Shown: one piece after another, positions 16,224 through 62,922 of the stretch
Position numbering within the stretch: position 1 is the stretch's first letter
Layout: each line of letters starts with the position of its first letter
Assembly (NCBI GenBank): GCA_963422465.1
Contig: OY730171.1
Location: 3,782,001 to 3,846,000, forward strand
DNA from: Lichina pygmaea
Taxonomy: Eukaryota > Ascomycota > Lichinomycetes > Lichinales > Lichinaceae
Length of the DNA stretch: 64,000 nt
Direction of reading: 5' to 3'
Translations under genes and position numbers: made by a program
The notes under the pieces: model-generated
What the model saw: only the letters and a program-made list of their open reading frames with translations
Database searches by the model: none
What the model was told of the DNA's origin: nothing

Positions 16224-19181
16224 TTCTGGGTACATAACCTGTACTTCACACCTACAAACCAGGAAAACTACAGAGCATCAGCAGAAGCTCTACTGGATGT
16301 ACTGGCCCAGGCACTGGAGAAAGAAGGAGAACATATTCTTCTGACTGACTCAAACCTCCACCACCCATCCTGGTCAAAATCTTCCCAACTCTACTCTGAA
16401 CTAGCTACTAAGTTCAAAGAACTCACAGATGATCAAGGACTAGAGCTGGCAATAGCACCTTTCACACCAACAAGAGCAAGAACACTGGCAGAGCCTCCCT
16501 CCTCTGCTATTGACTTATCTTTTATTTCTATGTCACTTCTTAATTCCTTTATTTCTTCCCAGATTAACCTAGACTTCCACACAGGTTCAGACCACAGACC
16601 AGTTTAGACAATCCTAAGTCTGGAAACACCAAAGAAAGCCAGAACCCACCAAAGAAACTGGAGAACACTAGATCTGGACCAAGTCAAGAAAGAAGCTAAG
16701 AATCTTCCCCCTATTCCACCACTACTTAACAGAGAGGAAGTGGACAACTATCTGGAGAACCTGGACAAAGCTCTTCAAGAACTGGCTGACAAGACAACAA
16801 GACCTCTGAGAGACTCAAAGTACACTGTTCCCTGATGGAACCAAGAGATTAAAGAGAAAATTAAAGAGGAAAGAAAACTAAGAAGAAAAGTCTTCCAAAA
16901 CCAAGAACCAGTCTACAAACTTGAAAAGGTAATAAAGGAAAAGAAACACCTGATCAAGAATGCTAAAAGAAAGATATTCAGAGAACAACTCCAGAACTTG
17001 GCTGAAACACAAAAGCACTGGAAAATAGCCAAGTGGGGGAAAGAAAAAGCTGGCAAACCACCAGAACTTCCAATTGTTCCAGAGCTCACAAAGCAAGATG
17101 GAGAAACTGCCAGAACTTTCACAGAAAAGGTAGAAGTATTCAAAACCCAGTTCTTCCCTCTACCTCTCCAGCCAGTACCAGAATCCCAGGACCAGCCAGC
17201 CAACCACCAACAACACCAGCTATCTCAGGAAATCTCCAAAGAAGATATACACAATATTTTGAAAAAGAAAAAACCTTTTACAGCTCCTGGGAAAGACACT
17301 CTACCCAACAGATTTCTAAAGGTATTAGGAGACTCTTTCAATGAAAAGATAGCCAAAGTTCTGGAAGCCTGCTGGAAGCTAGAATATTTCCCTGACAGAT
17401 ACAAAGCAGCCAGAACAATATGCTTGAGAAAGCCTAGCAAAGGATCCTATTGCTATGCCAAAGCTTGGAGGCCAATAGCACTTCTCAACACAATTGGGAA
17501 GCTGATGGAAGCTCTGGCAGCCACAAAGCTAAGTGAACTGGCTGAGAAAGAAAACCTGCTACCAGAAATCCAGATGGGCTTCAGAAAAGGAAGATCAACT
17601 GAGTCTGCACTATTTCTACTCACTTCCCAAGTTGAAAAAGTCTGGAAGGAAGGAATGGTAGCCAGTCTTCTTTCTCTGGATATCTCAGGAGCTTATGATA
17701 GAGTTCTGCCAGAAATTCTCAAGAAAATTCTGGAGAGAAAAGGAATCCCCAGCTGGTTTGTTAACTGGATCTTTTCTTTCACTACCCAAAGAAAAACCTC
17801 TCTTGTTTTTGATGATTCAGAGTCTTCTTTGTTTCCAGTACACTGTGGAGTCCCTCAAGGTTCACCTCTCTCTCCTATTTTATTTCTTTTCTATATTTCA
17901 GATCTTTATAATATTGTTCATACACCAGAGAAAGGAGTATCAGCTCTGGGCTTTGCAGATGACACAAACCTTCTGGCATTTTCCCCTTCTCTTAAAAGCA
18001 ATCTCCTGAAGCTAAAGTCTACTCACTCCAAGTGTTTAGACTGGGCAAGAAAACATGGAATGAAGTTTGCACCTGAAAAGTATGAACTTCTCCATTTTTC
18101 TAGAAGAAGAACAGATAATCTTCAGCTCAGTCTAAGACTTGGAGAAGTGGTACTACAGCCTAAGGAAGAAGTGCGTATTCTGGGACTACACTATGATTCC
18201 AAGCTTCTCTGGAAAAAACACCAGAAAATCATGTTACAGAAAGCTTCCAAGTTTTTCTCAGCACTTTCCAGAACTACTTTTTCTACATGGGGTCTACCTG
18301 TTCTCTCTGCTAGACTTGTCTACACTGCAATACTGAGATCACTTCTCAGCTATGCAGTAGGAGTCTGGTTCAATCCCCACAAAAAACCTTCTAATATTTC
18401 TTCTCTAAATCTTTTCCAGACTAAATGTCTAAAAACTATAGGAGGTGTCTTCAAAGCTACTCCTACATTTCTTATTGAAGGAGAACTATTCCTACCACCT
18501 CTTGATCTTTATTTCAAATTCAGAACAGCAACTTTCCTACAATCTTTCTATTTTTCTAATACTTCTTCTAATCCTCTCTCCTCACTTCTCTATAAGCTCT
18601 TTTCCCAGATCACTGTTTTTGTTTCTACTCTGAGAACACCTCCAAAGTCTCTGTCTACTGTCACACCTAACTGGAAAGCAAGATGGCTAGAAGAACTAAT
18701 CACTAACCAAGATTACTCTAAGAAACAATTTCAAGAAGTGTTTCAGAAAGAGTGGGAAGCCAGATGGCAGGCAAACAGACAGAAGTGTTCTCCAGTCTGG
18801 GAGCTATTTTGCAGACTACCCCAAAGGAAAAATCTCAAAGTTTTCAAAGACTTGAGAAAAGCTGAAGCTAGTCTTTACTTGCAGATTCTATCAGCAAGGA
18901 TAGGACTAGCCAGCTTTCTTTTCAGAGCAAATGTTCCAGACTTCCAATCCCCTCTATGTTCCTGTGGTTTTGGAGAAGAGACTGCTCAACATATCACTTT
19001 CTCTTGTAACAAGTTTCTTACTCAAAGACAGCAAGCCACTTTTCTTTCCTACAATTTCTCTACTTTACTTCAAAAGCCTAAAGTGCTTAAAGAATTTCTT
19101 CTCTGGTTTATGTCTTTGAAAAGACTAGACCAGTTTAACTTAGCACACCAACTCTTACCAGAAAACCTACCATCTCTGTGA
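16224..19181 (+). pseudogene. LINE ORF2 (endonuclease/reverse transcriptase), two stops
   Basis: One reading frame of 986 codons runs from the truncation point to the stop at 19181, with only two internal nonsense codons (16605-16607 TAG and 16833-16835 TGA). The first 130 residues are the end of an AP-like endonuclease domain (LLTDSNLHHPSW, then SDHRPV). The reverse transcriptase follows, with fingers motif MGFRKGRSTESALF, LSLDISGAYDRVLP, HCGVPQGSPLSPILF and the catalytic FADDTNLLAF. The C terminus has a Cys/His motif (CSCGFGEETAQHITFSC). The TGA falls where the sister copy has Trp-Trp. From Met 16998 onward, 727 residues stay open, including all catalytic motifs. The missing N-terminal endonuclease should make it non-autonomous. 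Confidence 0.9.
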
Positions 19182-21721: not shown

Positions 21722-23623
21722 ATGGAGAAGCTGTACAACAACTGAATGAGTGATGCTCTTGCAGAGCTTAATCTAGAAGACCAAATCAACTATTCTGCCA
21801 CTGCTTCAAGGTACAATGTCAGCTGCCAGACACTTTCTTGACAGCACAAAGGAAAAAGCATGTCCCACAAGCTGGTCAATGCAACAGTCTGACAAGCACT
21901 TTCCAGGATCCAAGAAGCAAAGCTAGTGGAGTGCATTAGTGCCCATAGCATTCAGGGATGGCCAATGACCCCCCAGGTTGTCCGGGACCTAGCAGAGTGT
22001 ATTGCTGGAAGGCTGCTAGAAGAGTGCTGGACTCAACACTTTGTACAACACTATTCTGATGAGCTTAAAAGTGTCTTCCTTAAGCCAATTGACAAGCAAC
22101 ACAAATGGGCTGAGTCTGTAGTCTATATCAAAGCTTTCTATCAGCTGGTAACATTATCTATAGTCTTATTTATGAATAATATACTAAATTTTGTCTAGTT
22201 GTCAGACACTGTTGAGAAATACCAGATCACAGCAGACAACATCTACAATGTTGATAAGAAAGGCTTTATGATTAGTCAAGGACATGCCTCCTGACAAATT
22301 ATCAACAAGAAAGCCCACAAAGCTGGCAAAATCCTCAGCACTAATCAAGATGGGAGCTGGGAGTTTGTGACTTTTCTGGCATACATCTGAGCAACTGGAT
22401 CATGTATCCCACCAACACTGATCTACCAGGGTCAGTCGCATGATCTTCTGGATACATGGGTGGAGGGTCTGAACAACACAGAGGCGTACTTTGCTGTCTC
22501 TGAGAAGGGGTGGACTAACAATAAGCTTGGTCTTCAATAGTTAGAGAAAGTTTTTGATAAGTGTACTAAAGATAAGGTAGGGCAGAGCCATCATTGTCTT
22601 CTTATTGTTGATGGTCATTCTAGTCATGTTAATCTACCTTTCCTAGAATATGCCTATTCTCATAGTATTATTGTTCTTGTTTTCCCCCCTCACACTACAC
22701 ATCATCTACAGCCTCTTGATGTTGGTCTTTTCTCTCCTTTGGCAAAGCGCTATTCCCAAGAACTTGATACTATGATGCACAATAGTCTTGGTATCACATC
22801 AATCACCAAGCAGATCTTCTGGTCCTTATTCTATTCTGCTTGGCAGAAAAGTTTCACAACTGAGAATATCCAGTCAGCCTTCAAAGTGACTGGTATCTTT
22901 CCTATCAACTCTTCTTATGTTCTTGATGCTCTGAATCCTCCCCGAACACCCCAAAGATCTGCCCCAGTACAAGCTAAAACTCCTGTCACTTTCATTTCTT
23001 TTTGTTATGCTATTCAGATGCAGAAAAAGAAGCCTTCTACCAAAAGACTTAAGAAGATTGAAGATAGCTTTGCAAAAGTTATTACAGAGTGGGATCTGGA
23101 TAGAGTGACTGTGGGCCAGCTCACAACAGCTCTAGTGGTAGAGAAGAAGAAGAAGCAACAAGGAAAGTGACTCAATTTGCTGGGAGAAGAGGATGTTGGG
23201 CTGCAAATCTTTACTCTGACCGCAATCCAGATTGCTCAGACTTGAAAAGCTGTCAGGGAGGAGGAAGAAGAGCAGAAGAAAGATGAGAACAAGAAGAAGA
23301 GAGAAGAGGTAGTGCAGCAACACTTGAAAAAGCAGTCAGAGAAGGAAGAACAACAGGTGGCACAAGAAACTGCCTGACAACAAGTGTAAGAAGAGAAGGC
23401 AGAAAAGCAAGCAGAAAAAACTGCCAACAGAGAAGCTAAGAAGTAGGCAGAGAAGGAGAAGAAGGTTCAGCAAGCTGCAAGGGGTGCTAAAAAGCCTTCC
23501 CCACCAACCAAAGAGGTGCCTACCCCCGGTGATGATGGAGATGAGGGGGGGGAGAAGGATGAGGTCCTGAGGACCACTTCACATGGTCGTGTCTTGAGAA
23601 AACCATCACGCTTTGTACAATAA
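21722..23623 (+). pseudogene. Fot1/pogo-like transposase, broken (copy 2)
   Basis: It is colinear with the copy 1 transposase but clearly diverged. It carries TGA eight codons after its ATG, like copy 1. The helix-turn-helix reads GWPMTPQVVRDLAECIA, and the same intron position is kept (22148-22198, GT..AG, with TACTAA before the acceptor). The DDE region reads NVDKKG, VDGHSSH and QPLDVGLF. Many nonsense codons interrupt it. The end reads GRVLRKPSRFVQ. Confidence 0.8.
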
Positions 23624-25202: not shown

Positions 25203-26642
25203 CTCATCACCTGATATTGATCATCACGTGATCGAATACGGTACCGTGGTCGATCACGTGACGCTTGTTATCACCCAACGCTCGGTTGAGCGACCAAGCA
25301 CCCCCTCAAGGAAAAGTTGAATAACTTGATAGATATTTGTCGGAACTATCTCAAACTTGGATATATGATAGAATAGCATGCATAGAAGAGATAGTGAACA
25401 ATAGAAGTCTAGTGTACAAAGCGTGATGGCTTCTTCAAGACTTGACCACGTGAAGTCAGTTTAGGAGCCTCCTCCTCAGAGCTCCACTTATCTTCGTCAT
25501 CTTCAATGATAGAAGCTTCCTTGCTTGGTGGAGAAGACTCCTCAACAGTCTCTGAGCCTCCCTGGACCTTCTCCTTTCCTGCTGCCTACTTTTTGGCCTC
25601 TCTATTAGCTTTCACAATTGCAGCTTTTTTGGCCTTCTCCTCTCTTGCCACTTGACAAGCAATTTCTCAGTCAGTCTGTTGCTCTTCCTTCTCCAATTGC
25701 TTTTGCGAACACTCCCCCTTCTTCCTATCCTCCTCCTCCTTCTTCTGCTTCTCCTCCTACTCCTTTTCAGTATTTCTTGCAAGTGCAGCTTGGATTTTTG
25801 TTGGAGTGAAGATCTGAGGCTTATTATCCTCCTCTCCAAGCAGATTAAGCTGTTTTCCTCGCTGTTTCTTCTTCTCCATTAGTAGAGCCTGTGTTAGCTG
25901 TTCCACTGTAGCTTTGTAGAGATCTCGCTCTGTGATAACTTTTGCAAAGCCATCACTGATCTGCTCAAGTCCTTCTGAGGAAGTAGCTTTCTTCTGCACT
26001 TGAATTGCATAACAGAAAGATTTGAATATAACAGGAGTCTTAGCACAGATAGGGGCAGGTTTCTGAGGTGTATGAGAAGGTGGATTAAGAACATCAAGTA
26101 CTTGAGAAGCATTCAGGGGAAAGATACCAGTAGCCTTAAAAGCTGACTGAATATTCTCAGTTGTAAAGCTTTTTTGCCACGCAGAGTAGAAGATAGGCCA
26201 GAAGATATGTTTTGTGATAGATGTAATGCCTAAGCTGTTACGCATCACAACATCAAGCTGTTGGGAATAGTGTTGTGCTAGAGGAGAGAAAAGACCAACA
26301 TCAAGGGGCTGTAATCGATAGGTAGTATAAGGAGGTAGTACAAGAATAATAATACTATTTGCATCAGTGTATTCAAGGAAAGGAAGATTAACATGGCTAG
26401 AATAGCCATCAACAATAAGAAGACAACAACAGCTTTGTCCTGTCTGAGTTCTGGTAGACTTGTTGAAGACTTTCTCTAACCATCGCAGACCTAGATTATT
26501 ATTAGTCCACTCTTTCTCAGAGACAGCAAAATATACCTCAGTATTGTTCAGATCTTGCACCCAGGTATCAAGAAGTTCATGAGATTGACCTTGGTAGATA
26601 AGAGTTAGAGGGATATATGATCCAGTTGCTTGAACACATACA

Positions 26643-27242
26643 TGTTGCGGTCTGTACCGTACTGTCCTATCCGAGTATAGGATTAGGGCGAGAGGTGGAA
26701 GGCGGGTTGGTTCTCGCAGGAGAGGAGTGTCAAGGAGTGCGAAGGGGTTTGGTGGAACGTGGTGGTGGTGACACCTGATCAACAGCTTCGTACAAAGGAT
26801 TGTATTGAAGTAGATCTAGTTGTCTGGATCACAACATGAGTTGAAGACGATCGTTCCATAAGGGAACTATCACCGGACTATATAGTGCTGGCCTGTCAAG
26901 ACAATCGAGATTTTCTCGACAGTCTTGATGTCGAGACAGGTGAGATTGTCTTGACAGTCCCACCATGTTATGCACTCTGCGTCGAGACAATTGAGATTGT
27001 CTTGATACTTCATGCACCCTGCGTCGAGACTGGTGAGATTGTCTCGATGCTTCATGCATCCTGCGTCAAGACTGGTGAGATTGTCTCGATGCTTCATGCA
27101 TGCTGCGTCAAGACTCCCGTGTGTGTCTCGACAGTCACGTGACCCCTTGTTGGTTGGTCACTTGACTTCCATGGTGTCCTCTTGCCTGGCCCGCGGCCTG
27201 ATTGCCTATAAATGAGTGGCTCCCATCCTCTGGGTCATAACA
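26643..27242 (-). repeat. 3' LTR of chromovirus I-a
   Basis: 600 bases. On the plus strand it starts TGTTGCGGTC and ends CATAACA. The middle holds about four imperfect units of 42 bases (GAGAC..GTGAGATTGTCTC), each with a short inverted repeat. A TATAAA box at 27207-27212 on the plus strand faces the antisense frame. Confidence 0.95.
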
Positions 27243-27286
27243 CTACCCTCCTCTTCTTCATTCATCGTCCTGATGAATTCTTGAGT

Positions 27287-27787
27287 ATGTCTGCAAAATC
27301 ACGTGCCTCTGCTTACTGAAACCAACTGGCAGCCCAGATCTGTGATCATAACTTCGTGTCGCTTGCTCTGTGTGACTTCTGTGTTTTGAACCACAAGCCC
27401 TGCTTCCAAATGTCTGACGACAACGATAAGTTGAAGTGTGCTGAATGCACTCATCATGGGAAGTCCTGTGTGTCACTTTCTTGGGAGTCACTGAACATGA
27501 CTCGGGATAACCTTCGCGAGGATTTGGCTGTCGATGAGGCCAAGCGGGATACTCTTGTTGAGCAGCTTGCCGAGCTGCAGGCTTGTGTGTCCTGAAAGCG
27601 AAAAGTTCTTGAGGGTGCTGAGAGTTGAGCAAAGAAGAAGCTCCAGTGCCTTGTTGCTGAAATGGAGGCGGATGGTGAAGATTTGTCAGCGACAGTCATT
27701 GACGTGTCCGCGCTGCAGGCCGAGCTGTTCAGTCCTGCTTCTGCCGGAACTGCTGCAGGAGGAGCTGGCAGTTCGCGAGGTTCCTGA
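27287..27787 (+). pseudogene. Antisense Zn2Cys6-like frame, decayed copy
   Basis: Same length (501 bases) and place as the open copies at 29811 and 57625. It has at least two nonsense codons of the CGA-to-TGA type, one at codon 11 and one after CVS (27593-27595). All six cysteines of the C-x2-C-x6-C-x11-C-x2-C-x6-C pattern remain. Confidence 0.8.
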
Positions 27788-29173
27788 GTGGCTCCCAGGT
27801 ATTTTCCGAGTCTGGGTAGTTTTTCCACTTGACAAGGTATCGCTGACCTTTTCTCTTCAGGATCTGTTCGGCCTCGAATTCCTGTTCTTCCTCTGGTTGG
27901 TAATGAAATGTTTCCTGCAAGGGTGTGCTCTGGTCAGCTAATTTGATTATTAAGATGTGAAAGTTTGGGTGTACCTGAGCGTCTCTCGGTAGTCGCAGTC
28001 TGACGTTGACTGGTCCAGTTTTTTCTTCGACTGAAAATAGTCTGACCTTGACATAGTCTAGTTTCTTTGTTCTTGGTTTCTTTGTTTTCCAATTTCTTGT
28101 GAGGAGGTAGACTTTATCCCCCTTCTTTAGCTGAGGTGCCATTTTCGATTTCTTGTCCATTTGACATTGCATTCTTTCTGAGGTCTCTTGAAGGTAGTGC
28201 CTCATCATTGTGTGCGTTTGTCATAGGAGCTTGTCGTGTTGGAGTGCTTTCTCCGTGTTTGGTGAAGCTCTGCTTGGCATCCTGATATTCGCATGTTGTC
28301 CAAAATTGGCAAAAAATGGTGATTCCTTTGTTGAGTCTGATCTGTGCTGGTTGATTGCCAGCTGTGCCACCGGTAATAACTGTACCCAATTGCTGTGGGT
28401 CTTGTTGATGTAATACTGTAAGTAAGTCTCCAGGACTTGGTTCACTTGCTCTGTCTGGCTATCAGTTCATGGGTGATAGGCCGTAGATATTTTGGGTTTT
28501 GTTCCCATGGCTGCACTGATTGTCTTCCAGTAGTTGGATGTGAAGAGTTTGTCTCTGTCTGTAATGATCGTGATCGGAACTCCGTGGTCTCTGACCAATC
28601 TGTCCAGTAAGAGGTGTCCCAACTGTTCTGCTGTGTGGGTCTCCTTGAATGGTACCGCTATTAGATATTTTGTGAATCTGTCCACTATCACCATAATCAA
28701 GTTGTAGGTGATCTCTGTGACTGGGTCTTTGAACTTGGGTAGCTTTGTGATGAAGTCCATTGACACGTCTTCCTACGGGCCTCTCGGTATTGTGTTCGGG
28801 TGTCCTTCTCCGTATAGCTTATGTCTTCCATGTTTGTTTTTCTGGCATAGTAGACACTTGCTGATGTAGTTTGTGACATGTTGTCAGAGGTTAATGACAT
28901 TGTTCCCTGCCTGTTGGATAAGGTCTGTGGTCTTGGAGATTCCTGGGTGACCATGTGCTGGATTATCATGGTAGTTCCTTATTAGTTCTTCAGTGTCTTC
29001 TGCCGTGAGCTCGTTGATCTGTGGTTGAGGCACCAGGTTTCCTTGCTGGTCCTGCTGTAAGATTGTTCCTTGGTGTTCATCATCTTCCATGTGGTTTTTT
29101 CGTCAGCTTAGTACGTCTGCTCTCCTATTGTCTTGTCCAGGGGTGTACAAGATCTTGAACTTGTGTTGCCCTA

Positions 29174-29767
29174 TGTTGCGGTCTGTACCGTACCGTCCTA
29201 TCCGAGTATAGGATTAGGGCGAGAGGCGGAAGGCGGGTTGGTTCTCGCAGGAGAGGAGTGTCAAGGAGTGCGAAGGGGTTTGGTGGAACGTGGTGGTGGT
29301 GACACCTGATCAACAGCTTCGTACAAAAGGATTGTATTGAAGTAGATCTAGTTGTCTGGATCACAACATGAGTTGAAGACGATCGTTCCATAGGGGAACT
29401 ATCGCCTGGCTATATAGTGCCCAGTTCGTGAGCAGAGTGAGCTCTGCTCACTTTGCTCACTTTTCATGCACGCTGCAGTGAGCTGGGTGAGCTCTGCTCA
29501 CTTTGCTCACTTTTCATGCACGCTGCGGCGAGCTGGGTGAGCTCTGCTCACTTTGCTCACTTTTCATGCACGCTGCGGCGAGCTGGGTGAGCTCTGCTCA
29601 CTTTGCTCACTTGTTCGTGCATATGCATGCTGCGGCGAGCACCCCCTGGTTTGTCTCGCCGGTCACGTGACCGGTTCCTGTGTCACGCTGTCTGGTACTT
29701 CTGTCCAGTATCCTGTCTGCTGCTTTCTGTGAGTATATAAAGACTGTGTTCCTCCTGGGTCGTAACA
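29174..29767 (-). repeat. 3' LTR of chromovirus II
   Basis: 594 bases. It contains four units of about 51 bases carrying GTGAGCTCTGCTCAC, itself an inverted repeat. It shares roughly the first 245 bases (plus-strand view) with the type I LTRs. Confidence 0.95.
29734..29740 (+). promoter_or_regulatory. LTR TATA box facing the antisense frame
   Basis: TATATAA on the plus strand near the inner end of the LTR, 77 bases upstream of the antisense ATG at 29811. The type I LTRs have TATAAA at the matching place (27207 and 57546, 80 and 79 bases from their ATGs) in otherwise different sequence. The conserved spacing supports a real promoter; transcription has not been shown. Confidence 0.55.
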
Positions 29768-29810
29768 CTATCCTCCTCTCTATCTTTCATCGTCTCGATG
29801 AAATCTGGTC

Positions 29811-30311
29811 ATGCCTCCAAAGTCACGTGCGACTGTTAGCCGAACTCAGCTGGCTGCTCAAATTCACGATCGGGGTTTTGTTTCGCGTACGCCCTGCGAC
29901 TTTTGTGTTCTCCGTGGTCGTCCATGCTTCCAGATGCTGGGAGAAGACGATAAGTTGAAATGTGCTGCGTGCACTTGGCGCGGAAGGTCTTGTGTCTCTG
30001 TGTCCTGGGAATCTTTGAACATGTCCCGGGACAACCTCCGTGAGGATGTTGCCGCTGACGAGGCAACACGTGATGCACTCTTTGAACAACTTGCCACAGT
30101 GCAGGCTCGTCTGTCTCGGAAACGAAAGGTGTTGGAGGGCGCCGAGGTCCGTGCGAGGCAGAAGCTTCAGTGCTTGGTGAAAGAGATGGAGTCAGATGGC
30201 GAGGATTTGACTCGATCAGTCATTGACGCGTCCCTCCTGCAGGCCGAGCTGTTCGGTCCTGCTCCTGCTGAAACTGTCGCAGAAGAAGCTGGCAGTTCGC
30301 GAGGTTCTTGA
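29811..30311 (+). CDS. Antisense Zn2Cys6-like protein of chromovirus II
   Basis: An open frame of 166 codons on the strand opposite to gag-pol, between the 3' LTR and the end of pol. It overlaps the pol 3' end tail to tail by 92 bases. Residues 29-61 fit the fungal Zn2Cys6 spacing exactly: CDFC, then PC, then KCAAC, then RGRSC (C-x2-C-x6-C-x11-C-x2-C-x6-C). The usual Lys/Arg run between cysteines 2 and 3 is weak (VLRGRP), so DNA binding is uncertain. Residues 70-130 have heptad-like Leu/Val spacing and high charge, suggesting a coiled coil. The C terminus is acidic and Ala-rich. The copy at 57625 has the same length with no gaps and about 64% identity by hand count. I know of fungal hypothetical proteins of this general build, but not of an assigned function. 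Confidence 0.7.
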   Translation: MPPKSRATVSRTQLAAQIHDRGFVSRTPCDFCVLRGRPCFQMLGEDDKLKCAACTWRGRSCVSVSWESLNMSRDNLREDVAADEATRDALFEQLATVQARLSRKRKVLEGAEVRARQKLQCLVKEMESDGEDLTRSVIDASLLQAELFGPAPAETVAEEAGSSRGS

Positions 30312-33300
30312 GTGGTTCCCAGGTATTCTCCAAGTCTGGGTATCCTTTCCACTTGACGAGGTATTGCTGACCTTTTCTAGCCAGGATCTGTTCAACCTCA
30401 AACTCTTGTTCTTCTTCAGGTTGGTGATGAAATGTTTCCTGCAAGGGTGTGCTCTGGTCGGCTGGTTCAATCATTGATATATGAAAGTTTGGATGGACTC
30501 TGGCATCCCTTGGTAGTCGCAGTCTGACGTTGACTGGTCCAGTTTTTTCTTCGACTGAAAATGGTCCGACCTTGACATAGTCCAGTTTCTTTGTTCTTGG
30601 TTTCTTGGCTTTCCAATTTTTTGTGAGGAGGTAGACTTTATCCCCCTTCTTCAGCTGAGGTGCCATTTTCGATTTCTTGTCCATTTGGCGTTGCATTCTT
30701 TCTGAGGTCTCTTGAAGGTAGTGCCTCATCATCGTGTGTGTTTGTCGTAGGAGCTTGTTGTGTTGGAGTGCTTTCTCCGTGTTTGGTGAAGCTCTGCTTG
30801 GCATCCCGATGTTTGCATGTTGTCCAAAATTGGCAAAAAATGGCGATTCCTTTGTTGAGTCTGATCTGTGCTGGTTGATTGCCAGCTGTGCCACCGGTAA
30901 TAACTGTACCCAATTACTGTGGGTTTTGTTGATGTAATGCCGTAGGTAAGTCTCCAGGACTTGGTTCACTCGCTCTGTCTGGCTGTCGGTTCGTGGGTGA
31001 TAGGCCGTAGACATTTTGGGTTTTGTTCCCATGGCTGCACTGATTGTCTTCCAGTAGTTGGATGTGAAGAGTTTGTCTCTGTCTGTAATGATTGTGATCG
31101 GAACTCCGTGGTCTCTGACCAATCTGTCCAGTAAGAGGTGTCCCAACTGTTCTGCTGTGTGGGTTTCCTTGAATGGTACCGCTATTAGGTATTTTGTGAA
31201 TCTGTCCACAATCACCATAATTGAGTCGTAGGTGATTCCTGTGACTGGGTCTTTGGACTTGGGTAGCTTTGTGATGAAGTCCATTGACACATCTTCCCAC
31301 GGGCCTCTCGGTATCGTGTTCGGGTGTCCTTCTCCATATGGCTTGTGTCTCCCATATTTGTTTTTCTGGCATAGTAGACACTTGCTGATGTAGTTTGTGA
31401 CATGTTGTCAGAGGTTAATGACATTGTTCCCTGCCTGTTGGATCAGGTCTGTGGTTTTGGTGATTCCTGGGTGACTATGTGCTGGATTATCGTGGTAGTT
31501 CCTTATTAGTTCTTCAGTGTCTTCTGCCGTGAGCTTGTTGATCTGTGGTTGAGGCACCAGGTTTCCTTGCTGGTCCTGCTGTAAGATCGTTCCTTGGCGT
31601 TCATCATCTTCCATGTGGTCTTTTCGTCGGCTTAGTGCGTCTGCTCTCCTATTGTCTTGTCCAGGGGTGTACAAGATCTTGAACTTGTGTTGCCCGAGGA
31701 GTTCAGCCTATCTGACTTGCCGTCTGTTCAGCTTCTTGGTTGTCGTGAATGTTGTCAGATTCTTGTGGTCTGTGAGAACAGTGAGTTCAGAACTGCTTTC
31801 CGCGTACACTCTCCAGTGTTCGAGTGCGTTGACGACTGCCAGTAGCTCTTTGTCGTGGATATCATAGTTTCGTTCTGCTTGTGACATTTTGCGTGAGTAG
31901 TAGGCAACTGGGTGCCACTTGCCGTCTGCCTGTTGGCATAGACATGCTCCCACCGCTTGGTCTGAAGCGTCTGTTTCGATTCGTGTTGGCTGGCCTGTCT
32001 TGAAGTTGAGGAGAACTGGTTCCTTGGCGCAAGCGTCCTTGAGCTGTTGGAATGCTTTTTGTTGTCTCTCCGTCCACCGGTACTCCACGTCCTTCTTCGT
32101 GAGTTCTGTCAGTGGAGTTGCCATCTGTGAGTAGTTCTTGATGAACTGTCAGTTGAAGTTGGCAAATCCTAGGAAAGCTTGTACTTCCTTAACTGATGTC
32201 GGTGTTGGCCATTGCTGAATCGCTTTGATTTTCTCAGGGTCAATCTTGATCCCTTCAATCCCTATGATGTATCCGAGGAATTCAACTTCCGGTTTGTTGA
32301 ACTCGCATTTCTTTGGGTTGAGCTTGAGCCCTGCCTTTTGTAGGCATCGTAGAACATCCTTCACATGTTTGGTATGTTCCTGTTGCGTGTTCGAGTAGAC
32401 AAGAATGTCGTCCAGGTAGACGATAGCTGTTTGGTCCAGGTGTGCTCTGATGACGTTGTTGATCAATGCTTGACATGTTGCTGGTGCGTTCGTGAGTCCG
32501 AATGGCATAACCAGATACTCGTAGTGTCCGTATCGGGTTCTGAAGGCTGTCTTCCATTCTTCTCCTTCTTTCATGCGTATCAGGTTGTATGCTCCTTTCA
32601 AGTCCAGCTTGGTGAAGATTGTAGCTTGACTGATCCTGTCTCGCAATTCGTTCGCATTTGGCAACAGATATCGGTTTTTGATGGTAATGTCGTTGAGTTT
32701 CCTGTAATCCACACAAAGTCGAAGACTTCCGTCTTTCTTTGGTGCAAATAGTATCGGGTATCCTGCTGGTGATTGAGATTCTCGAATGAAACCCTTTTTC
32801 AGGTTTTCCTCCAGGTACTCGCGAAGTACTTGGAGCTCTTTCTCTGATAACTGGTAAATTGGTCCAAATCCTGGCTCCGTCCCTGGTTGCAACTTGATCT
32901 CATGATCCCAAGGTTGGTGCTTAGGCAACGCTGCTGTCGTTGTCTCTTCCTGAAAGAGGTTATCATACCCAGGTCGGTACTCTTCAGGGATCTCCAGAGG
33001 GTTAACAACTTCCTCTCTCTTCATCTCTGACTGTTTGGCCACCTGGTTCCGGGGTGTGCCTGTCGAGGCAGACCTCTTCTTTTGAGAGTCGTCCTTTCTG
33101 TCGGTGAGGTTCCACTGAGGACTCCTTCCCTCATCTGTCCACGCCTTCTGCGGCTGGTAACAGGTCCGAGCTGTGTTGTTAGTGCAGTTCCTAAACGTGA
33201 GTACTCCTGTCTTCCAGTTAACAACTGGGTTGTGCTTCTTTAGCCAAGGCATCCCCAAATAGATATCCTGAGTGGCCAACTCGACGATATCAAGGTGGAT

Positions 33301-33552
33301 CCTTTCAGCATGGTGTCCGGTAACCATTTCCATTGGCTGCGTCTCATGGCAGACTAGCTCTGTCTGTCCATTTGCCATCGCGAGCTGATAGGGCTGCTGC
33401 TTGCGTCTCCTTCCAGTGCCGAGGGTATCGTAAAGTTGTCTTGAGATGTAGTTTCCACTGGCTCCAGAGTCAACAAGTGCGTATGTCTGTACTGGCGTGT
33501 TGGCGTGTAGTGACACAGGCAATCGCAGGTGCTTTGCGTTGCTAGGGGTCAT
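30220..33552 (-). pseudogene. Chromovirus II pol, three nonsense codons
   Basis: One frame of 1111 codons. Order: aspartic protease ([12 protein letters not shown] near residue 27), reverse transcriptase with YLDDILVYS intact, RNase H (TDASDQAVGACL), zinc-binding and integrase core (DFITKLP, then DRDKLFTSNYWK), and a chromodomain near the C terminus (YLVKWKGYPDLENTWEP). Three in-frame stops lie near 32150, 31708 and 31409. In each case the relatives or the context suggest Arg CGA or Trp TGG as the original codon. A chromodomain at the integrase C terminus marks the chromovirus branch, which targets marked chromatin. Of the three gypsy I/II copies, this is the one that keeps all the catalytic residues I checked. 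Confidence 0.9.
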
Positions 33553-33590
33553 GTTGTTGAGCTCCCGATGTCGCCCCTTGACAAGGGAGT

Positions 33591-35090
33591 TCAGTCTTTT
33601 CCCGATCGAAGTGTCTTACCACTGACTGGGCAATGGGTCCAGCCATTCCCATCAGTTCTGAGGAATCTGTTCATGAATTTGTCTTGCTGATGCTTGTCAC
33701 ATCCAGGCCTGAGGCAGTACTGCCAATTGTCAACGTAGCAGTTGTAGTTGTTGCCTTGCTGTAGGAACATGAGGTGTTCGTGCCAATCATGTGTGTGCCC
33801 GGGGAATGCGGTGTGTTGGCGTTTGTCCCAAAGATGGATCTCACACGCATCCTTCTCGCAATTGACCCAATGCTTGTGGCAGGTGGCGTGGTAGGGTGAA
33901 TGTCCTCCGTACCTTCGTAGTTGTTCGTGGTAGGTGCAGTAGTGCTTCGTGCAAAACCTCCACTGTAGTTCGCCGTGCCGTAGATTTCATGGGTCCATGC
34001 TGTAAGCATAGCTTCCTCGTGGTATTTCTTCTTTGATAGACGCAGGTTTATCTCGGTCCCCATCAGAGGTGGTTAAGGGCTCCTGTCCCTTGTCCTGACC
34101 TGTTAGTTCTGGTAGGTCCTTGCCTCCTGATGTTGCCAGTTGGTGGGCTGCTTCCAATATCTGATCGTAGTCGTCCCATTGTTCGAGGGATAGCTGAGCC
34201 TCTCCTGGTGGGTCCTCTGGCTCGATGACATTCCAGTCTCCGTCGAGTGTATTAAGTTGCTGTCGGTGCACCTTGTTCTTTGAACGACAGTCTTTCGCCA
34301 TGTGGCCTAGCTTGCCACAGGCATAGCACTTCAGTGCTTTCCCCTTTTTGTTGTTCCTTCCCTTTGTGAACCTTCCCTTGTGGTGGACTGCATCCAGTTC
34401 CATGGGTGCATAGCCATATGGATCATGTGGTGGTGCCTTGTTAGGCGGCTTGTAGTGGTTGCTCACATACCATGCGGGGCGGCTGTATCCTCCGTCGTGG
34501 CGTTTCTCCATCGCTCGCTCGAATAGTTTGTCATCGATGTCGATTGCTTGTGCGATGAGTTCATCCAGTGTGTCGACTGCTTGTCCGTCGAAGGTGATCT
34601 CATCCTTCACGTTTTCCTTGAGTCCACGTCGGTACATGACCATCAGGGCGTCGTTGTCCCAGTCGGTCAGTACTGAGTATTGTTTGAACTGCGTGGTGTA
34701 CTCTGCGGCTGAGCGTCGTTGTTTGATGTGCTGGATCATTCGTATAGCCACTTTGTCTTTGTTAGATGGTCCAAGGATCCTTTTGATCTCGTCCTTGAAT
34801 CGTGTCCATTTTGTCATCCATTCCATTGTGCCGTCGTGGTCTCCGTTTCCTGAGAGGTGTTTGTTGACGTAGGGCTTGATCCATCGATAAGCATTGCCTC
34901 TCATGTAAGTGGTTGCGAAGAGGGGCCACTTCTCCTTAGGCAGCTTTGTCTCTGGTTGGAATTGAAAGTAGACTTGGAGTTGCATGAGCCAGTCGTCAAC
35001 CTTGTTTCTTTCGCCGTAGAACAGGTCTGGCTTGGCAACGCTAATCTTTCCATCTGGGAAGTTGGGGTTGGTTGCTCCTGAGGTACTCAT
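33591..35090 (-). pseudogene. Chromovirus II gag, one premature stop
   Basis: The ATG at 35090 lies 19 bases from the end of the 5' LTR. The frame is open for 367 residues to TGA at 33987-33989. The same frame continues to 33591, giving about 500 codons in all; the I-a copy has CGA at this stop. It contains the capsid region (ATTYMRGNAYRWI), a CCHC knuckle (CYACGKLGHMAKDC) and a Cys/His-rich C-terminal region. Pol starts 39 bases later in another frame. Confidence 0.85.
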
Positions 35091-35108
35091 CCTTGAGGGT
35101 CTTCAAAG

Positions 35109-35738
35109 TGTTGCGGTCCGTACCGTACTGTCCTATCCGAGTATAGGATTAGGGCGAGAGGTGGAAGGCGGGTTGGTTCTCGCAGGAGAGGAGTGTCAAG
35201 GAGCGCGAAGGGGTTTGGTGGAACGTGGTGGTGGTGACACCTGATCAACAGCTTCGTACAAAAGGATTGTATTGAAGTAGATCTAGTTGTCTGGATCACA
35301 ACATGAGTTGAAGACAATCGTTCCATAGGGGAACTATCGCCTGGCCATATAGTGCCCAGTTCGTGAGCAGAGTGAGCTCTGCTCACTTTGCTCACTCGGT
35401 GAGATAAGTGAGCTCTGCTCACTTTGCTCACTTTTCATGCACGCTGCAGTGAGCTGGGTGAGCTCTGCTCACTTTGCTCACTTTTCATGCACGCTGCGGC
35501 GAGCTGGGTGAGCTCTGCTCACTTTGCTCACTTTTCATGCACGCTGCGGCAAGCTGGGTGAGCTCTGCTCACTTTGCTCACTTGTTCGTGCATATGCATG
35601 CTGCGGCGAGCACCCCCTGGTTTGTCTCGCCGGTCACGTGACCGGTTCCCGTGTCACGCTGTCTGGTACTTCCGTCCAGTATCCTGTCTGCTGCTTTCTG
35701 TGAGTATATAAAGACTGTGTTCCTCCTGGGTCGTAACA
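35109..35738 (-). repeat. 5' LTR of chromovirus II
   Basis: 630 bases, 36 longer than its partner because of one extra partial repeat unit (about 35390-35425). Most base differences between the two LTRs are C/T or G/A at CpG. Confidence 0.95.
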
Positions 35739-37636
35739 CCCTAGGAGTTCAGCCCATCTGACTTGCTGTCTGTTCAGCTTCTTGGTTGTCGTGAACGTTG
35801 TCAGATTCTTGTGGTCTGTGAGAACGGTGAGTTCGGAACTGCTTTCCGCGTACACTCTCCAGTGTTCGAGTGCGTTGATGACTGCCAGTAGCTCTTTATC
35901 GTGGATATCATAGTTTCGTTCCGCTTGTGTCATTTTTCGTGAGTAGTAGGCAACTGGGTGCCACTTGCTGTCTGCCTGTTGGCATAGACATGCTCCCACT
36001 GTCTGATCTGAAGTGTCTGTCTCGATTCATGTCGGTTGGCCTGTCTTGAAGTTGAGGAGAACTGGTTCCTTGGCGCAAGTGTCCTTGAGCTGTTGGAATA
36101 CTTTTTGTTGTCTCTCTGTCCACCAGTACTCCACGTCCTTCTTCGTGAGTTCTGTCAGTGGTGTTGCCATCTGTGAGTAGTTCTTGATGAACTGTCAGTT
36201 GAAGTTGGCAAATCCTAGGAAGGCTTGTACTTCCTTAACTGATGTTGGTGTTGGCTATTGCTGAATCACTTTGATTTTCTCAGGGTCAATCTTGATCCCT
36301 TTGATCCCTATGATGTATCCGAGGAATTCAACTTCCGGTTTGTTGAACTTGTATTTCTTCAGGTTGAGCTTGAGCCCTGCCTCTTGTAGGCATCGTAGAA
36401 CATCCTTCACATGTTTGGTATGTTCTTGTTGCGTGTTCGAGTAGACAAGAATGTTGTCCAGGTAGGCGATAGCTGTTTGGTCCAGGTGTGCTCTGATGAT
36501 GTTGTTGATCAATGCTTGACATGTTGCTGGTGTGTTTGTGAGTCCGAATGGCATAACCAGATACTTGTAGTGTCTGTATCAGGTTCTGAAGGCTGTCTTC
36601 CATTCTTCTCCTTCTTTCATGCGTATCAGGTTGTATGCTCCTTTCAAGTCCAGCTTGGTAAAGATTGTAGCTTGGCTGATCCTGTCTCACAATTTGTTCG
36701 CATTTGGTAACAGATATCAGTTCTTGATGGTAATGTCATTGAGTTTCCTGTAATCTACACAAAGTCGAAGACTTCCGTCTTTCTTTAGTGCAAATAGTAT
36801 CGGGTATCCTGCTGGTGATTGAGATTCTCGAATGAAACCCTTTTTCAGGTTTTCCTCCAGGTACTCGCGAAGTACTTGGAGCTCTTTCTCTGATAACTGG
36901 TAAATTGGTCCAAATCCTGGCTCCGTCCCTGGTTGCAACTTGATCTCATGATCCCAAGGTTGGTGCTTAGGCAACACTGCTATTGTTGTCTCTTCCTGAA
37001 AGAGGTTATCATACCCAGGTCGGTACTCTTCAGGGATCTCCAGAGGGTTAACAACTTCCTCTCTCTTCATCTCTGACTGTTTGGCCACCTGGTTCTGGGG
37101 TGTGCCTGTCAAGGCAGACCTCTTCTCTTGAGAGTCGTCCTTTCTGTCGGTGAGGTTCCACTGAGGACTCCTTCCCTCATCTGTCCACGCCTTCTGCGGC
37201 TGGTAACAGGTCTGAGCTGCGTTGTTAGTGCAGTTCCTAAACGTGAGTACTTCTGTTCTCCAGTTAACAACTGGGTTGTGCTTCTTTAGCCAAGGAATCC
37301 CCAAATAGATATCCTGAGTGGCCAACTTGACAATATCAAGGTGGATCCTTTCAGCATGGTGTCCGGTAACTATTTCCATTGGCTGCGTCTCATGGCAGAC
37401 TAGCTCTGTCTGTCCATTTGCCATCGCGAGCTGATAGGGCTGCTGCTTGCGTCTCCTTCCAGTGCCAAGGGTGTCGTAAAGTTGTCTTGAAATGTAGTTT
37501 CCACTGGCTCCAGAGTCAACAAGTGCGTATGTCCGTACTGGCGTGTTGGCGTGTAGTGACACAGGTAATCGCAGGTGCTTTGTGTTGCTAGGGGTCATGT
37601 TGTTGAGCTCCCGATGTCACCCCTTGACAAGGGAGT

Positions 37637-39136
37637 TCAGTCTTTTCCTGATTGAAGTGTCTTTCCACTGACTGGGCAATAGGTCCAGCCATTCCCATCA
37701 GTCCTGAGGAATCTGTTCATGAATTTGTCTTGCTGATGCTTGTCACATCCAGGCTTGAGGCAGTACTGCCAATTGTTGACGTAGCAGTTGTGGTTGTTGC
37801 CTTGCTGTAGGAACATGAGGTGTTCATGCCAATCATGTGTGTGCCCGGGGAATGCGGTGTGTTGGCGTTTGTCCCAAAGATGGATCTCACACGCATCCTT
37901 CTTGCAATTGACCCAATGCTTGTGGCAGGTGGCGTGGTAGGGTGAATGTCCTCCATACCTTCGTAGTTGTTCGTGGTAGGTGTAGTAGTGCTTCGTGCAA
38001 AACCTCCACTGTAGTTTGCCGTGCCGTAGATTTCGTGAGTCCATGCTGTAAGCATAGCTTCCTCGTGGTATTTCTTCTTTGATAGATGTGGGTTTGTCTC
38101 AGTCCCCATCAGAGGTGGTTAAGGGCTCCTGTCCCTTGTCCTGACCTGTCAGTTCTGGTAGGTCCTTGCCTCCTGATGTTGCCAGTTGGTGGGCTGCTTC
38201 CAATGTCTGATCGTAGTTGTCCCATTGTTCGAGGGATAGCTGAGCCTCTTCTGGTGAGTCCTCTGGCTTGATGACATTCCAGCCTCTGTCGAGCGTATTA
38301 AGTTGCTGTCAGTGCACCTTGTTCTTTGAACGACAGTCTTTCACCATGTGGCCTAGCTTGCCACAGGCATAGCACTTCAGTGCTTTCCCTTTTTTGTTGT
38401 TCCTTCCCTTTGTGAACCTTCCCTTGTGGTGGACTGCATCCAGTTCCATGGGTGCATAGCCATATGGATCATGTGGCAGTGCCTTGTTAGGCGGCTTGTA
38501 GTGGTTGCTCACATGCCATGCGGGGTGGCTGTATCCTCTGTCGTGGCGTTTCTCCATCGCTCGCTTGAATAGTTTGTCATCGATGTTGATTGCTTGTGCG
38601 ATGAGTTTGTCCAGTGTGTTGACCGCTCATCCGTCAAAGGTGATTTCATCCTTCATGTTTTCCTTGAGTCTACGTCGGTACATGACTATCAGGGCGTTGT
38701 CATCCCAGTCAGTCAGTACTGAGTATTGTTTGAACTGCGTGGTGTACTCTGCAGCTGAGCGTTGTTGTTTGATGTGCTGGATCATTCGTATAGCCACTTT
38801 GTCTTTGTTAGATAGTCCAAGGATCCTTTTGATCTCATCCTTGAATCACGTCCATTTCGTTATCTATTCTGTTGTGCCGTTGTGGTCTCCATTTCCTGAG
38901 AGATGTTTGTTGACGTAGGGCTTGATCTATCAATAAGCATTACCTCTCATGTAAGTGGTTGCAAAGAGGGGCCACTTTTCCTTAGGCAGCTTCATCTCTG
39001 GTTGGAATTGAAAGTAGACTTGGAGTTGCATGAGCCAGTCGTTGACCTTGTTTCTTTCGCCATAGAACAGGTCTGGCTTGGCGACGCTAATCTTTCCATC
39101 TGGGAAGTTGGGGTTGGTTGCTCCTGAGGTACTCAT
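37637..39136 (-). pseudogene. Chromovirus I-a gag, broken
   Basis: A 1500-base frame with several nonsense codons. It keeps the knuckle (CYACGKLGHMVKDC) and the open C-terminal segment 38044-37637, which shows a Cys/His-rich region (HATCHKHWVNCKKDACEIH, later CLKPGCDKH). That part is read here but cut off by a stop in the inner element. Confidence 0.8.
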
Positions 39137-39154
39137 CTTTGAGGGTCTTCAAAG

Positions 39155-39754
39155 TGTTGCAGTCCGTACCGTACCGTCCTATCCGAGTATAGGATTAGGG
39201 CGAGAGGTGGAAGGCGGGTTGGTTCTCGCAGGAGAGGAGTGTCAAGGAGTGCGAAGGGGTTTGGTGGAACGTGGTGGTGGTGACACCTGATCAACGGCTT
39301 CGTACAAAGGATTGTATTGAAGTAGATCTAGTTGTCTGGATCACAACATAAGTTGAAGACGATCGTTCCATAAGGGAACTATCGCCGGACTATATAGTGC
39401 TGGCCTGTCGAGACAATCTCGATTGTCTCGACAGTCTCGACGTCGAGACGGGTGAGATTGTCTCGACAGTCCCACCATGTTATGCACCCTGCGTCGAGAC
39501 AGGTGAGATTGTCTCGATGCTTCATGCACCCTGCGTCGAGACTGGTGAGATTGTCTCGATGCTTCATGCATCCTGCGTCGAGACTGGTGAGATTGTCTTG
39601 ATGCTTCATGCATGCTGCGTCGAGACTCCCGTGTGTGTCTCGACAGTCACGTGACCCCTTGTTGGTTGGTCACTTGACTTCCATGGTGTCCTCTTGCCTG
39701 GCCCGCGGCCTGATTGCCTATAAATGAGTGGCTCCCATCCCCTGGGTCGTAACA
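39155..39754 (-). repeat. 5' LTR of chromovirus I-a
   Basis: 600 bases, same type as 26643-27242. More of its repeat units retain CGAGAC/GTCTCG than in the 3' LTR, where many read CAAGAC or GTCTTG. Confidence 0.95.
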
Positions 39755-45646: not shown

Positions 45647-48600
45647 TTTTTATTTTATTTTATTTGATTCTTACACTGTTTGTAGCTTTACAGCCATGCA
45701 GATCTTCCAGCTAATAGTGAACTTCTTCAGAAAACCTTTAAAGGAATAAAAACTGAAGACAGGGAGGTGACTAGAAAGTGTAGCAAAAGGAAATCTTGTA
45801 GTGTCTGGTAGGAAAAGCTTCTAGATGTTGGAGTGTGAATAGTGAAGTTTGAAAGCCAGATTAAATTGGTTTAGTCTTTTCAAAGACATAAACCAGTACA
45901 GAAACTTCTGTAGAAGCTCTGGGTTTGAAATAATAGTAGTGAAATCTTGGGGGTTAAAGAGAGCATGTTGTCTTTGACTTGAGTAGAGAGAGCATGAAGA
46001 GGTGATATGCTTTACTGTCTCTTCTGCTTGACCACACATGCATAGGGGGGTAGGAAAGTCAGGGACTCCAGCTCTGAAAAGAAAACTTGCTAGACCAATT
46101 CTCCCAGTTCTGGTTTGCAGTAGTAGACTTGCCTCAGCTTTCTGTAGCTCTTTGTAGAGCTTTAGGTTGTTGTAGTGAGGTTTTTGGCAAAACACCTGCC
46201 ATCCAGCATAGCCTTTTCTTTTCTTCTCCTCCCATTGGTTTTCCCACTCTTTAGTAAAGAGTATTTGTAGTTCTTTCTTTGAACTAGCCTGGTTAGTAGT
46301 TATTTGACTTAACCAAGTGAACTTCCAATTAGGAGAGATAGTTGAGGATTTCTTTAAAGGTTTCCTCAGTGAAGAAGCATAGGAAGAAATAGTAGCAAAG
46401 GTACTGTCAAGAAAGTCTTTCAGAGAGGAGGTTTGGATAGAAGATAGAAAACAAGCTGTGCGAAATTTAAAATAGAGATCTAGAGGTAAAAGAAAAAGCT
46501 CACTCTCTAATAGAAAAGAAGGAGTGGCTTTGAAAGCACCCCCAATAAGTCTCAGACATTTGTTTTGGAATATGATAAGAGAGGAAATATTAGAGAATTT
46601 TCTGAGTGGGTTGAACCAAATTCCCACTGCATAGCTCAGTACAGATCTGAGTATTGCAGTGTACACAAGGCGTGCTGTGAGAACTGGAAAGCCCCAGGTG
46701 GAGTAAGAGGTTCTAGAAAGAGAAGATAGTGCTTTTTGTGCTTTTTGAAGAATAATTCTCTGGTGTTTGTGCCAGTGGAGTTTGGCATCCAGGTACACTC
46801 CCAATACTCGCACTTCTTCTTTTGGTTTTAGAATCACATTCCCAAGTCTAAGCTTGAGCTGCAGATTGTCTGATCTTCTTCTGGAAAAATGAAGTATTTC
46901 ATATTTCTCAGGAGAGAAGACCATTCCATGTCTTGCAGCCCAAGATAGACATTTAAGATGTGTATTCTTCAACTTCAGAAGGTTGCTTTTAAGAGAGTGT
47001 CCAAATGCAAGCAGATTTGTATCATCTGCAAATCCCAGAGCAGAAACACCAGTAGTAGGAGAATGTACAGTTTCATGAAGTTCAGAAATATAGAATAGAA
47101 AAAGAATAGGAGACAAAGGGGAACCTTGGGGAACTCCACAGTGAATAGGAATAGAAGAGGACTCAGAGTCATCAAAAACTAGGGTGGTGGTACGTCTGGT
47201 ACAGAAAGAGAAGATCCAAGAAGTTAGCCAGAGAGGGATTCCTTTTCTCTCCAGAATCTTTTGAAGAATCTCTGGAAGAACTCTGTCATATGCTCCTGAG
47301 ATGTCCAGAGAAAGTAGAGATGCAACCATGCCTTCTTTCCAGACTTTTTCCACTTGGGAAGTTAGAAGGAAAAGTGCTGATTCAGTTGATCTGCCTTTCC
47401 TGAACCCCATCTGGATTTCTGGCAAGAGTTTAGCCTCTTCTGCTACCTTGCTTAGTCTGGCTGCTGTAATAGCTTCCATCAGCTTGCCAGTTGTGTTTAG
47501 CAGAGCTATAGGGCGCCAGGCTTTAGCTTGGTTATAGATTCCCTTGCCAGGTTTTCTTAGACAGACTGTTTTTGCATTCTTGAATTTCTCTGGAAAGTAT
47601 TCCAGTCTCCAGCATGTTGATGTGAGAACAGCTATAGCTTGGCAGAACTTGGGACCCAGAGCTTTCAGAAATCCATTTGGCAGCTTGTCTTTTCCTCCTG
47701 CTGTAAAAGGTTTCTTCTTGTTCAGAATTTGCTCCACTTCTTCAGTGGTAACCTCCTGAGAAAGCTGGATCTCTGGGGTACTCTGGTGACTTTCTGTACT
47801 TGGTTCTGGAACACGTGCTTCTGGAAAGAATTGAGCTGAGAAAGATTTTGTCTTCTCCTCAAAGCTTTTGGCTAGTCCTTCTTGAGTCTCCAGATCAGGG
47901 ACCAGAGGAAGATCAGGGGTCTTGTTAGCTTTTGATTTTCCCCACTTTGCAAGCTTCCAGAATTTTGAGGAACTGGCTAGCTCATGAACTTGTTTTCTGA
48001 AGGTGTTCTGTTTGCCTTCTCTGACAGCTTTCTTCTTGAGCTTAGTTGCTTCTTCTAGCTCTTCTTGGCTTGCCTGTCCTCTGAGCACTTGTCTTCTTAT
48101 TCTTCTTTCCTGCTTAACTTTAGTTTGGATCTCTTGGTTCCACCAGGGGACTGAGTGGCTAGATTGCTTCTGGAGTTCTGTGCATCTGTCTGCTATTTCT
48201 TGGAGAAAGTGGTTAAGATATTCCAAGTACTCATCCACTTCATGTTTATCTTGAAAGTGGAAGAGCAGCTGCAAATTATTACACTCTTGTTTTGCCAGGT
48301 TTGTGTCCAGTGTTTTCCAGTTCCTTTCTGGCTTCCAGGTTTTTCTTGGTGAGTCCAGGTCCAGGCTAGTTAGCACAGGTCTGTGGTCAGACCTATGAAA
48401 GAACTGCAAAGCAATTTTAGAAAAGATTAGAGAGTTAGAAAGAGAAGAAGATATAAAGGAAAGATCAATAGGTGAACAGGGTTTGTGGGAAAGAGATCTA
48501 GCTCTTGTGGGTGTAAAAGGTGCAATAGCTAACTCCAGATTTGAGTTTTTCATTAGAGTTTGGAACTTGTGTGCAGTGTCAGAATATAGTCTTCTTTTCT

Positions 48601-48730: not shown

Positions 48731-48974
48731 GTGTTGTCAAGTAAGCCTGTAGAGTATTGCTCAATGGATAGAAACTGACAACTGGCCTCTCAACCAGTGT
48801 TGGAGGGAAGGTCTGCTTATATGAATCTTGCTTAATGATCACATGACTTGGTACATACATGTCACATGACTGCTAAGTAAGATGACATACAGTCAAACCC
48901 AGTCAGGCACTTGTGCAAGCTGTGTGGCTTCTGACAGGTCCCCCTCTTCTAGAGTTGCAGTCTCTCACAACTAT

Positions 48975-57580: not shown

Positions 57581-57624
57581 CTACCCTCCTCTCCTTCATT
57601 CATCATCCCGATGAATTCTTGAGT

Positions 57625-61366: not shown

Positions 61367-61404
61367 GTTGTTGAGCTCCCGATGTCACCCCTTGACAAGG
61401 GAGT

Positions 61405-62904: not shown

Positions 62905-62922
62905 CCTTGAGGGTCTTCAAAG

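Follow-up and report, generated by a model that had tools for sequence, protein, structure and literature searches.

A selected antisense gene beside the 3′ LTR of a chromodomain Ty3/gypsy element from Lichina pygmaea and its apparent exchange together with U3

A complete chromodomain Ty3/gypsy element in a window of Lichina pygmaea DNA (the whole stretch analyzed, 64,000 nucleotides of contig OY730171.1, to which all plain coordinates refer) carries, in antisense orientation to gag-pol, a real protein-coding gene that is under strong purifying selection. As judged from the divergence of its copies, this gene and the U3 part of the adjacent LTR appear to form a single exchangeable block.

Elements of the window and copies of the antisense gene

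The following features are referred to throughout (types A and B designate the two main forms of the antisense gene and its block):
26643–39754, minus strand: element B1, hosting the nested element A; B1 target duplication TGTAT
27287–27784, plus strand: antisense gene of B1, type B, containing stops
29174–35738, minus strand: element A, Ty3/gypsy with chromodomain, complete; target duplication TAGGG
29174–29767, minus strand: 3′ LTR of element A, of the form TGTTACGACC ... GACCGCAACA
29416–29767 (approximate), minus strand: U3 portion of the element A 3′ LTR, with 18 type A half-sites; part of the putative exchangeable block
29734–29742, plus strand: antisense TATA box in U3 of the 3′ LTR, TATATAAAG, of conserved position
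29811–30311, plus strand: antisense gene type A, 166 amino acids plus stop; six-cysteine cluster at residues 29–61, predicted long helix at residues 66–128
30220–30308, both strands: tail-to-tail overlap of the pol end and the antisense gene, 89 bases
30220–35102, minus strand: gag and pol of element A, pol with stops
35103–35738 (low end approximate), minus strand: 5′ LTR of element A
56983–63520, minus strand: element B2, with type B block; 5-bp target duplication GAAAA
57625–58125, plus strand: antisense gene type B of element B2, open, second cysteine lost

Element A is a chromodomain Ty3/gypsy element in that gag, protease, RT, integrase and chromodomain follow one another in this order, with an SH3 domain between the latter two (as read in the scanned pieces of the element). 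Its LTRs differ in a repeat array that is 42 bases longer in the 5′ LTR. The element is inserted in the older, related element B1, and the antisense frame is located on the plus strand in A, B1 and B2 alike. A long inverted repeat adjoins element B1 (22390–23156 / 25861–26630, about 2.7 kb between; arms of 552 nt with 79% complementarity, further arms of 220 nt), and two long LINE-like reverse-transcriptase frames are present at 16836–19178 (plus strand) and 45824–48736 (minus strand), the latter with an endonuclease domain.

The frame of the type A gene covers positions 29811–30308 (stop codon 30309–30311; 166 codons, plus strand) and is open already from 29802; its length, strand and place had been read correctly from the sequence alone. 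With pol on one side and the 3′ LTR on the other, the gene has the placement of an aORF-3R (antisense to gag-pol, in the interval between pol and 3′ LTR); 409 of its 498 bases are situated outside pol and the final 89 are doubly coded. The search of the whole genome (32.47 Mb, 8 contigs) yielded 511 candidates, 150 of which were scored per query: all 150 scored places matched over nearly the full length, with the A and B queries alike (gene matches counted), i.e., the gene is conserved in most copies of the LTR retrotransposon, as is characteristic of an aORF-3R.

Most of the scored copies are broken, with 8/150 (A search) and 26/150 (B search) free of stops. The compared sets consisted of the best 30 of the 150 scored loci for type A and of 15 copies for type B (13 genome loci and two from the window); the proportion of open copies therein (6/30 A, 5/15 B) is biased toward intact genes, because the loci were picked by protein score. 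C-to-T changes account for the internal stops in the compared copies, with 51 of the 53 located at CpG and two at CpA. The C-to-T rate amounts to 12.6% at CpG and to 2.2–3.4% at other sites; decay is thus highest at CpG and not, as in classical RIP, at CpA (3.4%), a pattern that suggests CpG methylation or CpG-biased RIP.

Two statements of the sequence-only reading hold with a qualification. The second copy at 57625 is indeed gapless with 64% identity to type A; its cysteine motif is incomplete, since the second cysteine is gone (CDFY), a residue that is kept in 14 of the 15 type B copies compared. The statement that the sense genes carry stops beside open antisense frames is true for the stops and uninformative as evidence: across 1,132 codons, pol of element A is interrupted by 3 in-frame stops, a rate at which only about 0.4 stops are expected per 166 codons. 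Separately, the type B copy L036 (G000 C1:2424771) contains an open gene with all six cysteines and has no upstream LTR; the sequence preceding its ATG is unlike the element, and L036 is possibly a detached gene copy.

Coding status, antisense promoter and predicted protein

Comparison of the copies gave pN/pS values of 0.39 within type A, 0.42 within type B and about 0.25 between the types (pN 0.186, pS 0.732, dS saturated; codons 1–136, 6 open A × 5 open B copies); the value near 1 across many copies, which the earlier reading had named as counterevidence, was not seen. In a neutral simulation of one pair, pN/pS had a mean of 0.79 and a minimum of 0.47 in 1,000 runs, against an observed value of 0.24. 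The fixed transversions in the part outside the pol overlap are distributed over codon positions 1, 2 and 3 as 17, 8 and 29, and transversions are not a product of C-to-T decay. Over the 30 codons that overlap pol, pN/pS was 0.67. Of the other five frames (codons 1–136), four had dN/dS values of 1.2–1.9; the mirror frame had a value of 0.19, yet contained stops in 11/11 open copies.

The antisense TATA box (TATATAAA) at 29734 is situated in U3, 77 bases upstream of the ATG, as had been noted. A TATA box at −75 to −80 is present in 44 of 45 copies (type A: −77, −75 in one copy; type B: −79/−80), the sole copy without it being L036, where the LTR is absent. Its position is kept although the local U3 identity of A versus B2 is only 47%, and the LTR edge of a third type, C (see below), contains a TATA box as well. 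The relatives P0014, P0026, P0030 and P0033 have an N-terminal extension, RNT or CNT, as translation of the LTR edge would give, which suggests that their genes occupy the same place in their own elements. The picture of a selected, element-carried gene in a position to be transcribed out of the 3′ LTR is upheld by pN/pS, by the conserved place and by the conserved TATA box. In the 5′ LTRs, the same antisense TATA (at 35705 and 63486) faces outward into the flanking DNA.

Zn2Cys6 (PF00172) domains are characterized by the spacing C-x2-C-x6-C-x5-12-C-x2-C-x6-8-C. The spacing reported previously for the copy at 29811–30308, C-x2-C-x6-C-x11-C-x2-C-x6-C, is exact. Protein searches returned 23 (E ≤ 0.001), 165 (E ≤ 1; best 120 of 165 listed) and 118 (E ≤ 1) relatives, own-genome copies included; relatives are also present in other assemblies, among them a Watsoniomyces obsoletus MAG, and the aligned ones keep the six cysteines at identities as low as 34%. 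The complete six-cysteine motif was found in 22 of 31 aligned rows (middle loop 8–12), all 22 with the Zn2Cys6 (PF00172) spacing; among the remaining nine, eight are short with the first half absent, and P0142 deviates from the motif. Zn_clus is the Pfam family touched by most members (9/31 at E ≤ 1, best 0.0019). The curated cut-off of PF00172 was not reached in the five rows with bit scores (10.2–16.3 of 21 bits), and the residue following the second cysteine is Arg or Lys in 0/22 rows, in contrast to Arg in 7/8 Zn2Cys6 domains of the same genome.

Comparison of the profile with these eight same-genome domains resulted in a probability of 49% over 35 columns with the six cysteines in register, a score exceeding 20/20 column shuffles (maximum 1.4%) and 20/20 shuffles in which the cysteines were kept (maximum 11.8%). 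DUF3716 (PF12511) attained nearly the same level (46%) over 12 columns, and its cut-off of 22 bits was not reached (13.8 bits, E 0.058). The sequence profile gave 19 rows among PDB chains to E 10, none of them significant, with a splicing factor first (E 0.074), GAL4 second (0.46), and LEU3 (1.3), CBF3B (3.0) and Pho7 (3.2) among the others. The structure model (31 sequences; mean pLDDT 82.7) predicts short helices at 33–38 and 55–60 in the cysteine half-repeats (pLDDT 81–84 there) and a single long helix at 69–131 (numbering begins three residues before Met); structural comparison of this model gave no significant fold match. The earlier description as Zn2Cys6-like is borne out by the likeness in spacing and profile, whereas membership is not supported: in view of the scores below cut-off and the missing basic residue, the protein is not assigned to Zn2Cys6 and the term "Zn2Cys6-like" is used.

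Divergence of the gene and U3 and the half-site arrays

Elements A and B2 are 92–98% identical over 30654–35153 (0–3 transversions per 300 bases), as opposed to 69% and 75% identity over 29754–30353 (37 and 26 transversions); per 60 columns, their identity is 47–73% in the gene plus U3 and 95% and more in R/U5. The fixed differences between 30 A and 14 B copies (80% rule) follow the same division: they number 15, 21, 14, 14, 16, 14 and 14 per 60 columns in codons 1–140 and 0 in the 1,260 pol columns 30531–31790, and the R/U5 side has six in 260 columns, five of which occupy the last five columns directly upstream of the sense TATA, with one in 255 columns left for the shared part of R/U5. Since pol and R/U5 are shared whereas the gene and U3 are diverged, A and B represent a single element family in which two blocks occur. 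On its right-hand side, the block ends near the expected U3/R junction, the position at which transfer of the strand to another RNA copy would place this border.

Between block and shared backbone, the pol end with the chromodomain (30231–30530) shows an intermediate A–B divergence (3–7 fixed differences per 60 columns, 28/300), perhaps the result of a second exchange. In the pol tree of 43 copies, A and B are mixed (4 changes) and B is a single clade in 0% of 200 bootstrap trees; a single B clade was not rejected by the AU test on this tree (p 0.09), and the pol tree is in consequence no proof of exchange. A further block, type C, was observed in two copies, L059 and L060/L062 (G000 C3:4397789, C7:1389267). 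In both, an inverted LTR adjoins the antisense gene at its start or within the start, and the sense promoter of this LTR faces the gene; the type C gene of L060 is open. On account of the inverted LTR beside the gene at both loci, it is a presumption that gene C and U3 C belong together.

The U3 portions contain numerous inverted repeats: 7-mer inverted pairs amount to 14 in A, 15 in B2 and 31 in B1 (shuffle means 1.2–1.4, maxima 8–10) and to 0 in R/U5. In U3 of A, 18 half-sites of the six-base form NYGAGM are present, 16 of which make up four units in the order forward, forward, reverse, reverse with 9-base steps. U3 of B (5′ LTR of B1) has 17 half-sites, chiefly TCGAGA, and U3 of type C has 19 (L059) and 15 (L060), namely TCGAGC and GCGAGC plus the A-type GTGAGC. 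Half-site pairs at step 9 were counted 12 times in A, 10 in B (B1), 11 in C (L059) and 8 in C (L060), against about 0.1 on average in shuffles; B2, which is more decayed, retains 8 half-sites and 3 such pairs, and R/U5 of A and C contains 2 half-sites and no step-9 pairs. Relative to the sense TATA, the half-sites are located upstream and at most about 240 bp away. These counts depend on a motif and a 9-bp grid that were set after inspection of the sequence; in a motif-free count, inverted pairs at distance 18 were high in 4/4 U3s with other distances equally high, distance 9 was among the top six only for A, and, the arrays being tandem repeats, the pairs are not independent.

Array and gene type are strictly linked. 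GTGAGC (A-type) occurs with a mean of 12.9 per copy in the 30 A and 0 in the 14 B copies, TCGAGA with its decay forms (B-type) with a mean of 13.6 in the 14 B and 0 in the 30 A copies, and GTGAGA in both (0.4 and 3.7); 30/30 A genes are accompanied by A-type sites only and 14/14 B genes by B-type sites only (L036, the 15th B copy, lacks an LTR and is left out), a linkage that is expected of adjacent DNA without any function. A CACGTG palindrome (TCACGTGA; e.g. near 29665, minus strand) is kept in U3 of A, B and C despite their strong divergence.

Proposed function and comparison with known systems

As the gene and the U3 arrays are one linked block, the reading that fits best is that of a DNA-binding regulator, Zn2Cys6-like and with a coiled coil, whose target would be its own U3, a proposal that we regard as evenly poised: inverted arrays that differ by type, next to a gene for a cysteine cluster and coiled coil that differs likewise, would be expected if the protein were a regulator that binds these sites as a dimer. 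The antisense RNA would start about the LTR edge, driven by the U3 TATA; the protein would fold into a two-zinc six-cysteine cluster followed by a long dimerizing helix, and the dimer would bind the inverted half-sites in U3 of its own type and thereby control the sense promoter, be it by self-activation, by self-limitation or by holding off silencing. The block exchange was probably brought about by retroviral-type recombination, with the strand transfer near U3/R and one template switch near the pol end. More tentatively, and with somewhat less confidence than the regulator itself, the gene plus U3 could constitute a self-recognition block, by which lineages change their specificity in swapping gene and array through template switching, gag-pol remaining constant. 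If the pairing of A and B proteins with their sites is true, retrotransposons would control themselves via a dedicated DNA-binding protein, and recombination would yield new specificities.

Alternatively, although this appears rather unlikely, the gene might encode an accessory replication protein, i.e. a zinc-knuckle coiled-coil protein that binds the element RNA or the pre-integration complex (nuclear import, packaging) and not U3. Plant antisense genes have been suggested to act in ways that resemble retroviral accessory proteins (passages of PMC7264820). A six-cysteine protein with two knuckles could conceivably bind RNA, and the presence of the gene in 150/150 scored places (of 511 candidates) agrees with such a role; the joint divergence of gene and U3, with gag, pol and R/U5 shared, and the type-specific inverted arrays would, however, be left unexplained. 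Still less probable is a block devoid of any cis-trans pairing, in which neighbors are exchanged together, the arrays bind host factors and the protein acts elsewhere, e.g. generally on host silencing. LTR elements commonly have U3 repeats to which host factors bind; moreover, linkage follows from adjacency alone, the CACGTG palindrome is common to each U3 type read, and some half-sites are common to A and C. This explanation is at odds with the change of the A–B half-sites throughout the array under retention of inversion and spacing, whereas host-factor sites would be expected to be alike within one host.

A function of the antisense transcript at the RNA level (double-stranded RNA, small RNAs), with the frame being incidental, is very improbable: antisense LTR transcripts may feed silencing (passages of PMC7264820), but selection acts on the amino acids and the protein is conserved in distant relatives; the pN/pS result refutes it as the only function, and an RNA role could exist alongside the protein. 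A frame that is open by chance and kept so by the sense strand, for which the doubly coded last 89 bases might speak, has a negligible probability and is refuted by the dN/dS of 1.2–1.9 in other frames and the stops of the mirror frame in 11/11 copies, with 409/498 bases outside pol; chance, which the sequence-only reading had itself considered, is equally contradicted by the full-length genome matches (150 scored of 511), by the relatives in other assemblies and by purifying selection.

The same reading had left open whether fungi are known to have such genes: for the chromodomain element Boty of Botrytis cinerea, an extra antisense gene, brtn, has been recorded (Zhao et al. 2011, Virology 417:248, per passages of PMC8365987, PMC7264820, PMC4227169, PMC5987419). 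Both Boty and the present element are fungal gag-pol elements with a chromodomain plus an additional antisense gene, and further additional ORFs occur in other Botrytis elements (passages of PMC8365987). Unlike the features reported here, a zinc cluster of BRTN, block exchange and U3 arrays are not mentioned in those passages of the citing literature on Boty. A relationship of the present gene to brtn is possible, in which case the gene would be a new member; measured against the same passages, the gene-plus-U3 block and the arrays are new, whereas an antisense gene in this place is already known. In plants, Grande gene23, RIRE2 and Retand TRP28 are likewise antisense genes in the interval between pol and 3′ LTR that are kept in most copies (passages of PMC7264820, PMC11963269). 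Retand differs in its non-chromovirus lineage, in its protein domain and in repeats that are mostly outside the LTR, and for none of the three is a gene-plus-U3 block described in the passages cited. The role of antisense genes in LTR elements is considered an open question (passages of PMC7264820). With the natural types A and B, which share gag-pol and differ in protein and DNA sites, this question becomes directly testable.

With the fungal factors GAL4, LEU3, HAP1, Pho7 and CBF3B, the protein has the six-cysteine spacing in common, here followed by a long predicted helix, and the corresponding rows are weak but repeated; it is unlike fungal Zn2Cys6 factors in remaining under the curated cut-off in all rows with bit scores and in having no basic residue after the second cysteine.

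VANDALs are DNA transposons and not LTR elements. The VANC proteins of Arabidopsis VANDALs pair with short tandem-repeat motifs in the non-coding DNA of their own element, motif and protein changing in concert (passages of PMC5735166), and the present elements similarly contain motif arrays in their own non-coding DNA that change with the protein type (here A, B), a comparison limited by the overlap of type C half-sites with those of A. The motifs of VANC21 stand in one orientation, while the half-sites described here are inverted; binding and methylation loss were shown by experiment for VANC (passages of PMC5735166), whereas here they are only predicted. If the proposed self-recognition block is true, it would be the retrotransposon counterpart of VANC/VANDAL, and element lineages within one genome would become mutual regulatory strangers.
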